A DNA stretch of 64,000 nucleotides from Pseudomonas chlororaphis subsp. piscium (GTDB lineage: Bacteria > Pseudomonadota > Gammaproteobacteria > Pseudomonadales > Pseudomonadaceae): positions 310,001 through 374,000 of the forward strand of contig NZ_CP027707.1 in assembly GCF_003850345.1 (NCBI RefSeq), written 5' to 3'. Below the pieces are notes generated by a model. The model ran no database searches. It worked only from the letters and a program-made list of their open reading frames with translations, and was not told the DNA's origin. Of this stretch, positions 24,932 to 62,768 are shown in pieces (position 1 is the stretch's first letter; each line of letters begins with the position of its first letter). The translations under genes were made by a program, and so were the position numbers.

Positions 24932-24960
24932 GAAGCCGCCCTTCGGGGCGGCTTTTTATT
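24932..24960 (+). terminator. Rho-independent terminator of pckA
   Basis: The stem agccgccc-ttcg-gggcggct is followed by tttttatt. The NA37 module's downstream gene ends at 24962 on the other strand, so it may serve both. Confidence 0.9.
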
Positions 24961-27704: not shown

Positions 27705-27959
27705 TTACACCCTAAATTGGGCAGTCTCCAACAAGTCACAGCCGTCCTGCACCAACAGGTAAAGGGCGTTAATGATATGGGCTGTATCTTTGGTGTCGGC
27801 CTGATGAAAGCTAAGGCAAGTCAGGGTCTCAAGCAGATCTGCTGCGGCCCGCAAGCGTTGTTGGGCACAGATGTAAATGTCTTGCTGATTGGCTTGGCTG
27901 TCGATGAAAAGGACGGGCCCGTCAGTAAAATTGCTTTTGAGAGCAAGATAGCGATCCAT
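27705..27959 (-). CDS. Small helical protein, DUF3077-like
   Basis: An 84-residue protein, mostly alpha-helical (AQQRLRAAADLLETL, HIINALYLLVQDGCDLLE). Its layout (a short strand LFIDSQ followed by two amphipathic helices) resembles the DUF3077/DUF6124-type small proteins that are numerous in fluorescent pseudomonads, and it resembles weakly the 85-residue protein at 62080. It lies 3' of a conserved structured element (28073-28262). The ATG at 27959 has an aggagatga ribosome-binding site. A 23-codon frame (27962-28033) precedes it and stops 2 bases before its ATG. Function unknown. Confidence 0.65.
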   Translation of the reverse strand: MDRYLALKSNFTDGPVLFIDSQANQQDIYICAQQRLRAAADLLETLTCLSFHQADTKDTAHIINALYLLVQDGCDLLETAQFRV

Positions 27960-28072
27960 TATTCATCTCCTAGGATAGCGAAGGTGAAAGAGGGAGATGA
28001 TATTGGCGTGTTGAGGCTGACTCTCTAGAGGCATATCGATTACTCACTTTGCTGTTAAGTAACCGCCGCCAT

Positions 28073-28262
28073 CGTGACCAAACGATGGGAGGCGGACTGT
28101 GCGCGGGTTGGTCAACCGGAACAGCAACCGGCACGCCCAAAGGCGTCCCACACACAGCCGCCATAGCAATGCGCTACACAGCCATGAAGATGGCGGTGCG
28201 CATGATGACATTTATGTGAGCTGTTGTCGGGTGACCAAACCCGCTCGCTGATTTTTTCAGCG
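28073..28262 (-). promoter_or_regulatory. Conserved structured element, copy A (upstream of small gene)
   Basis: Plus-strand landmarks are tgaccaa (28074-28080), ttggtca (28107-28113) and tgaccaa again (28231-28237). An outer stem pairs ggcgg-a-ctgtg (28090-28100) with cacag-ccgcc (28152-28161). A small hairpin is acgcc-caaa-ggcgt (28132-28145), and another is tcgctga-tcagcga (28244-28262). Every one of these is present in the copy at 62466-62663 with different bases that still pair. The element lies 114 bp or more upstream of the 27959 start, so it is a candidate 5' leader RNA or regulatory DNA. Confidence 0.7.
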
Positions 28263-28363
28263 ACAGTCCGAACTCTAGGCTGCCTGCAGGGACCGCTCAA
28301 TAAGCTGAATTCGACGTGGTTTGTAAGGCAATTCCTTTTCGCAGAGACCGCTAGCGGCCGCGT

Positions 28364-28909: not shown

Positions 28910-30115
28910 ATGGCCCGCAACAAGGACGTGCCCCAGGTATGGCAGCACTACGACGCTGACGGTGGCGGTTATCGCCGCCTGCGCGATATGACCGCGAGCG
29001 AATTGGCTGAGCGTGATGAGGCGCAGCGGGGTTATGAGCAGATGCTCGCTCGCCAGCAGGCCTATGAAGAGCGGTTGCCGACTACACGGGTGGAATCGCA
29101 ACCAGCGCCCGTTGGTTGCGTGTTCACCAAGTCTTGCAAGCTGCCGAACGCAGTCATCGACTACGTCACCCCGACAGGCTTCATACCAACTGATGCGGTA
29201 GGGAATTACGGCGCGTTGACGCTGCTGGGCGGTCGTGAGTTCGAGGCGGGTGGGCGAGTGCCCCTCAAGCGTATCAGCGGTGCGCTGCCTGCCAATCTCG
29301 GTGCCTTGACCCTGGGTGGGGTCTCCGTGGGTTCTGGCGCCACCGGCAGTGGCCTGGGGCTGATCTCCTCGGGCGTAGCGGCCGGTGCATTGCTGGGGCT
29401 GGTGGCCTTGCTCGCTCCATCGAGCCTGGGTGACGGCGCGCTGTACAGCGAAGAACAACTACGCAATCTCAAGCAAGCTCGCACCCGGCTACGCCTGCGA
29501 GTTGAACAGCAGGCCGATGGCAGCCTCAAGGGCTACGGCTTCAACACCCAGGGGCGCCGCGAGTGGGAAATGATTCCGGTGGCTCAGTTCGAGGCCCGTG
29601 GCGAGCAGCAAGTGGCCGACCTGGGCGATGGCATCACCCTCACCTGGACCCCGGCGGTGGACCCTTCGAGCACCATAGGGATACCACCGCTGGAAGCGGC
29701 TCCACAGACTCCACCGATCTGGATTTTCCCGCCGACTGAGGCGGCGGAGCGGATCATCGTCAGTCCGATTTATCCGCCGGAGTATCGGGATTTTATTCTG
29801 GTGTTTCCGGTGGGGGCGGGTGTTAAGCCACTTTATGTGGTGTTAAGTGTTCCAGGAAAACTGGGCCACTATCCTCCACCCAAGGAACTAGCAGCTTTTC
29901 CTGATACTTATTTGGTCCCTTCTAAAAACTCTGTGAGGGGTGGAGGTGCCAGGCGTAAACGCTGGTTGGATTCTAAAGGGCGGATTTATGAATGGGACTA
30001 CATGCACGGTACGGTGGAACAATACGATAAGCAGGGTAGGCATTTAGGTGAGTTTGATGCCGAGACTGGCCAGCGGCTTGAGGATGCAAAACCTGGACGG
30101 AGAACAGCCAAATGA
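28910..30115 (+). CDS. S-type pyocin-domain protein with colicin E3-type ribonuclease domain
   Basis: A 401-residue toxin. Residues 20-60 are a helical, charged segment. Residues about 65-300 match the pyocin_S scaffold (GCVFTKSCKLPNAVIDYVTP, then ALYSEEQLRNLKQARTRLRL and GYGFNTQGRREWEMIPVAQF) with a Gly/Ala-rich hydrophobic stretch at about 140-175. Residues about 350-401 match the colicin E3/cloacin 16S rRNase: KGRIYEWDYMHGTVEQYDKQ, then GRHLGEFDAETGQRL. The catalytic set is complete: D363, H366, E370 and R398, at the same mutual spacings (3, 7 and 35 residues) as D510/H513/E517/R545 of E3. It lacks the long N-terminal receptor-binding and TonB region of normal pyocins, so delivery is unclear. 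The immunity gene overlaps its stop by 4 bases. Confidence 0.85.
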   Translation: MARNKDVPQVWQHYDADGGGYRRLRDMTASELAERDEAQRGYEQMLARQQAYEERLPTTRVESQPAPVGCVFTKSCKLPNAVIDYVTPTGFIPTDAVGNYGALTLLGGREFEAGGRVPLKRISGALPANLGALTLGGVSVGSGATGSGLGLISSGVAAGALLGLVALLAPSSLGDGALYSEEQLRNLKQARTRLRLRVEQQADGSLKGYGFNTQGRREWEMIPVAQFEARGEQQVADLGDGITLTWTPAVDPSSTIGIPPLEAAPQTPPIWIFPPTEAAERIIVSPIYPPEYRDFILVFPVGAGVKPLYVVLSVPGKLGHYPPPKELAAFPDTYLVPSKNSVRGGGARRKRWLDSKGRIYEWDYMHGTVEQYDKQGRHLGEFDAETGQRLEDAKPGRRTAK

Positions 30116-30342
30116 AACATGAGGTGGTTGCGTTTGATCGAGATACCGAGCGAGTGGCATTCAGCATTGATCTGCCTGGGGAGAACCTGGAGCAGCTCAC
30201 TGCTCTGATGGGATGGCAAGAGCCTGATGATCCTATCTATGAGTACGAGCTATCAGACGAACAAATAGCGGCTTTAGAGAAGCTGATAGGCCGCCACTTT
30301 CACAGTCCGGATTACCTGTTTTTCCTGTCGTGCAGTGTGTAG
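30112..30342 (+). CDS. DUF7683-type immunity protein (predicted)
   Basis: A 76-residue acidic protein starting in the toxin stop codon overlap (ATGA, 30112-30115). The pattern FDRDTERVAFSIDLPGENLE, ALMGW, YEYELSDEQIAALEKL and FHSPDYLFFLSC fits a small family (DUF7683) often seen after S-type pyocin genes in Pseudomonas. Immunity to the E3-type RNase is predicted from position and acidic charge. It does not resemble classical ImmE3/cloacin immunity proteins. Confidence 0.75.
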   Translation: MKHEVVAFDRDTERVAFSIDLPGENLEQLTALMGWQEPDDPIYEYELSDEQIAALEKLIGRHFHSPDYLFFLSCSV

Positions 30343-30387
30343 TGAGATCTGTATTACTTGTCTTGAAACGGCATGGAGCAGAGTGTC

Positions 30388-30645
30388 ATGGGATATCGGT
30401 TTGAAGCTTTCGGTAGCAAATCTTTTTCCATAATGGGCTTTCGCCCTGGCGAGGATAAATTGGCTTTTGAGCTAAGCATGAGTTTATCGAGCACCGATCT
30501 GAGCCCGGTGATGAACTGGACCAATGACAATGAACATATCGGTGCCGATTTTCTGCTCACGGTCAGTCAGATAGTTGAAATAGAACAGTTGTGTTTTGTT
30601 GATTTACCTAGAGGTTTGGACCTTTATCTAGCTTCGTCAGGCTGA
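30388..30645 (+). CDS. Second immunity-like protein, diverged paralogue of the preceding gene
   Basis: An 85-residue acidic protein. It can be aligned with the preceding protein over KLAFELSMSLSSTDLSPVMNW and FLLTVSQIVEIEQLCFVDLP, so it looks like a diverged duplicate. The ATG at 30388 has ggagcagag upstream; an ATG at 30373 in the same frame has none. It may protect against a different toxin variant (orphan immunity), as commonly found after toxin exchange; that is inference. Confidence 0.6.
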   Translation: MGYRFEAFGSKSFSIMGFRPGEDKLAFELSMSLSSTDLSPVMNWTNDNEHIGADFLLTVSQIVEIEQLCFVDLPRGLDLYLASSG

Positions 30646-37433: not shown

Positions 37434-37919
37434 TTAGTCGCGCCAGTGACGTTTGTGCTTGCGATGCCCGTAGGCATGGCCACGACCCGGGTGGCCGTCG
37501 CGGTAGTAGCGGCGGTCGTCGTCGTAGTCGCGATCGCGGTAACGGCGATCGTCACGATCGCTGGAGTTGCCCATGTGGTTACCCAGTGCGCCGCCGACGC
37601 CACCGCCCGCTGCTGCGCCGATCAGGCTGCCAGTGGTGCCCCCCACGCTGCGACCGACCACGTTACCGCCGGCTGCGCCCAGCGCACCACCGATAGCGGC
37701 TTCGCCACGGCTGCGTCTGTCGGCACCCACGGCACTGCCGCCCGCGCCGCCCAGTGCGGCACCGATGGTGGAACCGGTGTTACCACCAATCGATTGGCCG
37801 ACGACCGAGCCTAGAACCCCGCCCAATGCGCCGCCCACACCTGCTTCAGTGGTGCCGCCGGCAGAGGCGATGCCGCTGACCAGGCCAAGGGACAACAAGA
37901 GAATCGAGGAGAACTTCAT
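37434..37919 (-). CDS. Glycine-zipper (YMGG-like) outer-membrane-associated protein
   Basis: A 161-residue protein with a signal peptide (MKFSSILLLSLGLVSGIASA), then about 90 residues of glycine-zipper sequence (GGALGGVLGSVVGQSIGG and similar repeats) that likely inserts into or packs on a membrane. A charged, Asp/Arg/His-rich C-terminus (residues 117-161; RDRDYDDDRRYYRD, HRKHKRHWRD) follows. No lipobox cysteine is seen. Function unknown; such proteins are common in Pseudomonas envelopes. Confidence 0.78.
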   Translation of the reverse strand: MKFSSILLLSLGLVSGIASAGGTTEAGVGGALGGVLGSVVGQSIGGNTGSTIGAALGGAGGSAVGADRRSRGEAAIGGALGAAGGNVVGRSVGGTTGSLIGAAAGGGVGGALGNHMGNSSDRDDRRYRDRDYDDDRRYYRDGHPGRGHAYGHRKHKRHWRD

Positions 37920-38126
37920 AGAGGAGCCTCAAAGGGATGACGGCGCGATCCTGAGGCTGTGTTGAGGCGCTTACAATCAAAATCCGACGAATAGCACGAG
38001 TTGTACACAATCTCGTAACTTGTTGTTTTTAGTAGGGAACTTATCTCGTTTTTGCGAGTCTGTAGCTACTTGGAAAAGGCTGCTTTTGGATGAAAGCGGC
38101 CTTTTTTGTGCCTGCGATTTCGTCGG
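37920..38126. ncRNA. Candidate small RNA with its own hairpin terminator
   Basis: This spacer has no open frame. On the plus strand it contains a small hairpin ctcg-tttttg-cgag (about 38047-38060) and then aaaaggctgcttt-tggatg-aaagcggcctttttt (38073-38106), a good terminator. No plus-strand gene lies upstream. The same stem may simply end the minus-strand fdhF gene (stop at 38127), so a bidirectional terminator is the alternative. Confidence 0.35.
38073..38106. terminator. Terminator hairpin downstream of fdhF-like gene
   Basis: aaaggctgcttt / aaagcggccttt stem with T tracts on both sides (six on plus, four on minus). It starts about 21 bases beyond the fdhF-like stop. Confidence 0.7.
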
Positions 38127-40471
<2,345 letters not shown>

Positions 40472-62079: not shown

Positions 62080-62337
62080 TTACTCCAGCACCTTCACCAC
62101 ATCATCGATCAGCGCCTTACTCATCGCCTGCAAGTAATGCGACGCCCAGGCATGCCGGTCGGTGCTGCGCTCCATGGCCGCGTCTTCGGCCAGCCGCTTG
62201 GCGATATGCAGCAGGTCCGAGGCGTGGGACAGGGCCTCACGGATCGGAATGCCGCTGCTGACGTGGAACAGGGGTTCGCCTGCGTGGAAAGGGCAGGGGG
62301 TGAGGCCGGGGGTTTTTAGGTCTTGAAGATGAGTCAC
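62080..62337 (-). CDS. DUF3077-family small protein
   Basis: An 85-residue protein of the DUF3077 family common in Pseudomonas: PCPFHAGEPLFHVSSGIPIR, EALSHASDLLHIAKRLAEDA and a second helix SHYLQAMSKALIDDVVKVLE. Function unknown. It starts at a GTG (62337) placed inside the stop codon of a 30-residue upstream frame (GTGA overlap), behind gcgtcggaggtgcaca. The structured element copy B lies about 130 bp upstream. Confidence 0.78.
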   Translation of the reverse strand: MTHLQDLKTPGLTPCPFHAGEPLFHVSSGIPIREALSHASDLLHIAKRLAEDAAMERSTDRHAWASHYLQAMSKALIDDVVKVLE

Positions 62338-62426
62338 TGTGCACCTCCGACGCTGGAAAGCACGTCAAGGGTGGGACTGGGGCACAGATTGGTGATGCAG
62401 GTTTCAAGCGGATTGATGGCGTCCAT
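62334..62426 (-). CDS. 30-residue leader/partner frame coupled to the DUF3077 gene
   Basis: ATG at 62426, behind acggagcgacatc, encodes 30 residues (starting MDAINPLETCITNLCPSPTL). Its TGA overlaps the GTG of the DUF3077 gene by 2 bases. Two Cys residues are present. The good ribosome-binding site and exact overlap suggest translational coupling; it may be a leader peptide or a small partner. No family recognised. Confidence 0.5.
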   Translation of the reverse strand: MDAINPLETCITNLCPSPTLDVLSSVGGAQ

Positions 62427-62465: not shown

Positions 62466-62663
62466 TTACCAAGCGAAGGGGTGGCAGCTGTACGCAGGTT
62501 GGTAAACCGGGGTAAACGAGCCCGGCAGACCCGAAGGTCTCCCGCGCACAGCCGCCATGACAAAATGGCAGGCGCAAAAAAAGCGCCTGCACTCGTCACG
62601 GGGGGCGCTGTAGCGCCGTTTACTCATCGGGTTACCAAGCCCGGTCGTTGAATTTGCAACGAC
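62466..62663 (-). promoter_or_regulatory. Conserved structured element, copy B (upstream of DUF3077 gene)
   Basis: Plus-strand landmarks are ttaccaa (62466-62472), ttggtaa (62499-62505, exactly 33 bases on, as in copy A) and ttaccaa again (62632-62638). The outer stem pairs ggc-a-gctgt-a-cgc (62483-62495) with gcg-c-acagc-c-gcc (62544-62556). A hairpin agacc-cgaa-ggtct (62527-62540) has a UUCG loop in the minus-strand RNA. An insert hairpin gcaggcgc/gcgcctgc holds a 7-T loop. The upstream hairpin is gtcgttg/caacgac (62644-62663). Pairing is conserved against copy A despite base changes. Confidence 0.7.
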
Positions 62664-62768
62664 GGGCGAGAGGTTAGCGTGGTGCTCGGTGGGCTGCAAC
62701 AGCGGGCAAAGCAAAGTGACAATTCGGGGTCTAGGAGGTTTGTTGGCGACTTTGATTTATCAGGTCAC

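Follow-up and report, generated by a model that had tools for sequence, protein, structure and literature searches.

What is the folded element that lies near 28 kb in the 64,000-nt stretch of Pseudomonas chlororaphis subsp. piscium DNA analysed here (the window), and what does it control? The word TGACCAA occurs there at 28075-28081 and again at 28232-28238, with its complement TTGGTCA between them at 28108-28114 (the first-pass annotation, which had recognised all three, placed them one base too low). In a second copy near 62.5 kb the same places are occupied by TTACCAA and TTGGTAA, the words having changed together as that annotation had described; we refer to the two elements as copy A and copy B. 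The pattern of a word followed after 26 nt by its complement is found twice in the 64 kb and in 0 of 100 dinucleotide shuffles. The annotation took the element for a selected minus-strand RNA of no named family, in which the middle word pairs with one flank or the other and so switches a small gene downstream.

Identity and layout of the two copies

We searched the window against Rfam at curated cut-offs. Copy A matched RF01695, the C4 antisense RNA, at 28085-28168 (-) with 66.4 bits, and copy B matched it at 62477-62562 (-) with 79.7 bits (cut-off 45 for both). The element thus has a name, and the RF01695 match rules out an unnamed RNA family. Phages P1 and P7 are where C4, a silencing device, first became known. 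As read from the sequence, copy A is very probably a complete C4-type antisense element on the minus strand, which would silence a leader ORF and an 84-aa gene.

All parts of copy A lie on the minus strand and follow one another in the order given here. A pattern search places a promoter-like site in front, with a -35-like TTGAGC (28295..28300) and, 17 nt further on, a -10-like TAGAGT (28272..28277) that stands 33 nt before a1. Next come the a1b1 leader element (28224..28278; RF03163, c4-a1b1, 32.9 bits, E 1.3e-6, below the cut-off of 46.7) and its boxes a1, TTGGTCA (28232..28238), and b1, AACAGC (28220..28225). Within the C4 RNA (28085..28168), the b' box TTGCTGTT (28120..28127) is situated at the third helix and its loop, and the a' box TGACCAA (28108..28114) covers an unpaired stretch and the first pairs of the closing stem; a GG is present where the first stem begins on its 5' side, the place expected for RNase P cleavage. 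Behind the C4 are a2, TTGGTCA (28075..28081), and b2, AACAGCAA (28049..28056), the latter directly 5' of a weak SD-like AGTGAG that belongs to a leader ORF of 23 aa (27963..28034). This ORF stops 3 nt before the start of the 84-aa gene (27705..27959), which has an AGGAG of its own. The a' box is complementary to a1 and to a2 over 7/7 nt each, while b' pairs with 8 nt of b2 and 6 nt of b1.

Copy B, also on the minus strand, has the same order of parts: a promoter-like TTGCAG-N17-TAACCT (62671..62699), an a1b1 element (62624..62677; RF03163, 51.8 bits, over the cut-off of 46.7), the C4 RNA (62477..62562), a leader ORF of 30 aa (62334..62426) and an 85-aa DUF3077 gene (62080..62337; PF11275, 111.6 bits, cut-off 21), which the leader overlaps by 4 nt (GTGA). 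Its a' box (62499-62505) lies inside the C4, and its a1 (62632-62638) and a2 (62466-62472) boxes lie outside it. An isrK match (RF01394, 51.5 bits, cut-off 50) at 62576-62663 overlaps the a1b1 element; in copy A, isrK scores 20.4 bits and, like c4-a1b1, stays below its cut-off. The window also holds a match to the Pseudomonas sRNA P34 (RF02405) at 37819-38189 (+), with 177.2 bits.

Covariation of the fold and co-change of the boxes

The annotation had described an outer stem and two hairpins that change while keeping their pairing. This holds across the 25 C4 cores that we found in the genome to which the window belongs, where 96.2% of the alignment cells are paired, both sides have changed in 15 of 25 pairs and every measure lies above all 500 shuffles; this is not to be taken as a probability, since the copies are related paralogs and relatedness inflates such shuffles. 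When the partners were slid by 1-3 columns as a control, pairing fell to 29-49%. At the positions given by the alignment columns, the matches a'/a1, a'/a2, b'/b1 and b'/b2 of these copies exceed all 20,000 re-pairings.

We extended the comparison to 151 pooled elements, comprising the 25 own copies, 30 from genus genomes and 96 from scans of DUF3077, QslA and copy-A loci (own-genome repeats and two elements cut by the locus end, L169 and L180, being left out), which gave 124 distinct elements once duplicates and short flanks were removed. In 114 of them a single 7-mer occupies a1, the site opposite a' and a2 (28 different words are in use), against 6.4/124 when a1 was taken from another element. 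Three of the 10 elements that do not fit match at a2 only, and a'/a2 match over 7 nt in 117/124. Downstream, b'/b2 match over at least 7 nt in 87/124 elements, vs 7.1% of mismatched pairs.

These observations bear on the switch that the annotation proposed, in which a' pairs with a1 or with a2 of a single transcript and the choice decides expression. The three boxes would indeed share a transcript and their pairing is exclusive, and a' may pair with its own a1 or a2. Moreover, among the 24 own copies with L020 left out, T-runs of at least 4 occur between a1 and the C4 in 18, a loose script finds an upstream-pairing arm in 14, and in ten an arm of 5-6 nt is followed by such a T-run, as in a terminator. 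However, the covariation falls on the C4 fold, members of the C4 family are reported to act, once processed, on target mRNAs (PMC5320573), and in copy A itself no T-run separates a1 from the C4, all of which makes a switch of this kind unlikely. What stood of the annotation's reading is a selected minus-strand RNA structure and, most likely, control of the small gene downstream; the middle segment is better read as the body of a processed antisense RNA than as an intramolecular switch. The b boxes, the leader ORF and the promoter-like site had escaped the annotation, as had 23 of the 25 copies.

Between b1 and the C4, several own copies also carry a T-run along with GGCGC/GCGCC repeats, as in isrK (in copy B, 62576-62663 (-)). 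Such features are suggestive, and no more than that, of a terminator ahead of the C4 itself in several own copies.

Distribution, inheritance and downstream genes

The annotation had proposed a search for further copies in front of similar genes, and its outcome was favourable. In the own genome (7.07 Mb, one contig) 25 C4 matches were found, all over the cut-off, with 150 of 2559 candidates scored. The neighbouring gene is of the DUF3077 family or of a weakly matching DUF3077/DUF6124 group in 12 cases, DUF6124 in 1, of the copy-A family in 10 (broken in L023) and QslA-like in 1 (L009; 20.7 bits for part of the frame and 38.1 bits for the whole frame), and 1 copy (L020) has none. Conversely, 12 of the 13 DUF3077 matches of this genome have a C4 upstream, and among its 18 copy-A family matches a C4 lies directly upstream of 10, one follows a C4-led DUF6124 gene (L002) and 7 have none. 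Taking own and foreign copy-A family loci together (n=30), a whole C4 is present in 19 and a C4 cut by the locus end in 2. With L020 set aside, 20 of the 24 remaining own copies have a promoter-like TTGNNN-N16..18-TANNNT 24-36 nt upstream of a1, compared with a mean of 0.12/24 in mononucleotide shuffles. The leader ends at or overlaps the next start in copy A, L009 and six DUF3077 copies (L001, L004, L005, L007, L012, L018); in other copies the gene follows the element directly. Beyond this genome, 138 of the 149 genus genomes searched contain C4; in 33 the count is 27, which equals the number of candidates scored there and makes these counts at least 27. It was also found in at least 24 of 369 genomes of the class (at most 11 candidates scored per genome), and in none of 14 control genomes.

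Some loci depart from the common layout. L023 (C1:405598-405680) keeps its C4, its a2 has decayed and its gene has two in-frame stops; its paralog at C1:4917893 has an open gene and no C4. At L020/L204 (C1:999984-1000069) the C4 has neither a matching a1 nor a matching a2, and a DUF6124 gene stands upstream of it, not downstream as in the common layout. Leaders of the a1b1 type without a C4 precede copy-A paralogs at C1:222443, 738208 and 4917736 of the own genome and at L200 (seen by eye). Three of these C4-less a1 words equal words of resident C4s (L013/L017, L016 and L008/L010), and one differs by a single base (L023/L024). It is possible, judging from these words, that such leaders are trans targets of resident C4s.

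To place copy A among its relatives, we compared loci L167-L180 with the window for shared flanking DNA. Seven relatives share it. Near 24957, at the end of a gene that we take to be pckA, the DNA is common to G002, G005, G010, G011 and G016, and near 33.4 kb to the same genomes except G010; G017 shares it at 28.4 and 30.9 kb, and G006 at 30.9 kb only. Because flanking DNA is shared in this way, the place of copy A is inherited. A C4 is present at this place in 5 of the 7 relatives; in L171 (G002) and L173 (G010) none was found beside the gene within the 3.2 kb searched. We then compared seven copy-A elements: our own, those of the five placed relatives and L186, which is known by its gene and not by its place. 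In six of them a2 matches a' over 7 nt, and in L172 over 5 nt. In L167 the pair a'/a2 reads TGGCCAA/TTGGCCA, both words having changed in concert, and a1 retains the former word, with pairing still possible through G-U. Across the elements the a word is mostly conserved; the b words vary, in most cases together with their partners, with b'/b2 matches of 6-9 nt.

The flanks of copy A hold pckA, NA37, DUF1493 and S-type pyocin genes, and Pfam assigned none of eight flanking proteins to a phage family (two had no match at all). Beside copy A, 28910-30645 (+) encodes a 401-aa S-type pyocin that bears a Cytotoxic domain; behind it come a DUF7683 gene and one for a 90-aa protein of no family, both perhaps immunity genes. 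The copy B DUF3077 protein has no match in 50,697 phage records and matches one plasmid of 72,556.

These data weigh against copy A being a decaying, now functionless remnant of a prophage. The family is known from phages, the b' loop of copy A is shortened in the RF01695 alignment, and L020 and L023 show that broken copies exist. Nevertheless, a place common to relatives, an a word that is mostly kept and b words that follow their partners, the 7-nt a'/a2 match across the pooled elements, the flanks and phage records just described, and a gene that is open and has homologs in P. chlororaphis and P. protegens make such a remnant highly improbable.

Chromosomal C4s could also silence incoming phages that carry matching boxes, the small genes being incidental. 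This has been proposed for the C4-like RNAs of Acinetobacter, beside a control of host transcripts (PMC5320573), and DNA similar to copy A is found in 3 of the 50,697 phage records. Yet each C4 matches the boxes of its own neighbour, which would be superfluous in a pure anti-phage repertoire, and we consider this role improbable as an account of copy A.

The copy-A protein (84 aa) has no Pfam or NCBIfam match. Its model is a helical hairpin that includes two short strands (mean pLDDT 88), and the model of the DUF3077 protein resembles it (pLDDT 87). Assignment of the copy-A protein to DUF3077 (PF11275) was rejected, as it matches 0 Pfam families and hhalign against the DUF3077 alignment gave a probability of 0.5%. 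A common ancestry of the C4-controlled proteins was likewise dropped, the profile comparisons between copy-A, DUF3077 and QslA having given nothing. Structure searches with the copy-A and DUF3077 models returned no solved match at E <=0.001 (4ng2, the QslA structure, is not among the matches listed, which proves nothing), and the DUF3077 alignment had one match among the sequences of solved structures, a designed peptide, at E 0.023. Since no solved structure matches, an anti-activator reading of the copy-A and DUF3077 families has two sources, the common control element and QslA. The association with C4 would nonetheless give a starting point for understanding the DUF3077, DUF6124 and copy-A families.

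QslA is named a LasR anti-activator in Pfam (PF18226) and is described as acting on MvfR (PMC6068238). Our QslA alignment finds PDB 4ng2 chain E with E 7e-23, and a C4 lies upstream on the same strand at 93 of 105 loci of QslA relatives, the sets of which partly overlap (19/27, 32/34, 27/29 and 15/15). Twelve QslA loci without a C4 (L083-L087, L091, L099, L102, L106, L136, L158 and L164) were searched again and gave no match; L099 and L158 are near contig ends. No near-identical copy of the 4ng2 stretch was found, the best being 60% identical (L238, with a C4); L164, without one, has 55%. These loci suggest that qslA is under C4 control in many Pseudomonas. Such control of a quorum-sensing brake would put a phage-type antisense RNA into quorum-sensing control, and a search in which each name was entered separately found no title or abstract start that mentions it. 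A Pseudomonas-type qslA locus with a C4 is also present in L118, whose record title names the cyanobacterium Kaiparowitsia implicata, probably through contamination.

Proposed control and comparison with known systems

We propose that a single promoter would drive a transcript from a1-b1 through the C4 body, a2-b2 and the leader ORF into the 84-aa gene. Within it, the C4 body would fold as in P1 and P7 and presumably be released by RNase P. The freed C4 would use a' and b' to bind a2 and b2 of other transcripts, with a1-b1 as an additional target at their 5' end. Pairing at a2/b2 would block the start of the leader ORF and hence expression of the 84-aa gene, until some signal, presumably, relieves the silencing. 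The AGGAG of the 84-aa gene is not covered by the boxes, so repression in copy A would run through coupling or early termination. With its short b' loop and poor leader SD, the control chain of copy A is weaker than in most copies, and its C4 score is the fourth lowest of the 25.

Because the words differ between copies, each C4 would be expected to recognise mainly its own transcript in the cell. Across 23 elements (L020 and L023 dropped), non-cognate pairs in which all 7 positions are Watson-Crick number 16/506, or 27/506 with G-U counted; the former arise because some words are shared between copies. In a crude sum of RNAduplex energies, 9 of 25 targets have their cognate C4 as the best partner (7 of 25 with the a box alone), and five other C4 RNAs beat the cognate one on the copy A target. 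Since these sums do not favour the cognate C4, our claim is limited to matched words, and insulation is unproven. With more than 20 natural antisense pairs in a single cell, this genome would allow one to study how short matched words may become before crosstalk sets in.

A broader and more doubtful reading, which we put forward tentatively, is that an antisense device of phages may have become, in Pseudomonas, a routine cassette controlling more than 20 small genes, most of which have a C4 RNA and matched words of their own. These genes would form parallel, largely insulated silenced circuits, with many of them encoding small protein-binding anti-activators of the QslA kind and with C4-less paralogs that keep an a1 word of a resident C4 as its trans targets. 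If so, loss of one C4 RNA would release one regulator.

The closest known system is immI of P1 and P7, with a' and b' loops and RNase P cutting (PMC5320573) and, in P1, the operon layout c4-icd-ant (PMC8198154, PMC8201110). The fold, the a'/b' boxes, the downstream targets, the upstream a1/b1 (RF03163) and a short ORF before the main gene are alike, the leader ORF of copy A being placed like icd (in position only). In contrast to immI, the elements described here are chromosomal and number 25 in one genome, the flanks of copy A are neither phage nor prophage, and the main genes are not of the antirepressor (ant) family; in 24 copies they belong to the copy-A, DUF3077, DUF6124 and QslA-like groups, one of them being broken. 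The isrK RNA of Salmonella prophage Gifsy-1 (RF01394), a leader ahead of translationally coupled ORFs (PMC12197685), is matched just over its cut-off by copy B and well below it by copy A; unlike in isrK, DUF3077 and not anrP comes next in copy B. QslA relatives share the position downstream of the same kind of element, and their alignment has no profile similarity to those of copy-A and DUF3077.

C4 was listed in Proteobacteria and phages by Weinberg 2010 (PMC2864571), and Weiss 2016 described many C4-like RNAs in one Acinetobacter genome, in what was believed to be the first such report (PMC5320573). Among the title and abstract starts covered by our search, outside which most subscription journals lie, none tied C4 to DUF3077, DUF6124 or similar gene families. 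The RNA family and its multi-copy chromosomal occurrence in Acinetobacter are therefore already known. The group 1 C4-like sRNAs of Acinetobacter baumannii AB5075 resemble ours in their many chromosomal copies and variable a' loop, and are reported there as expressed and apparently processed, whereas ours are known from sequence; that description assigns them no targets, whereas most copies here have matched a1/a2 boxes and an adjoining gene (PMC5320573). What our analysis adds to these systems are putative cognate targets, the gene families and a link to QslA: chromosomal C4 RNAs would gain a concrete target in the adjoining gene, recognised by words that change together.
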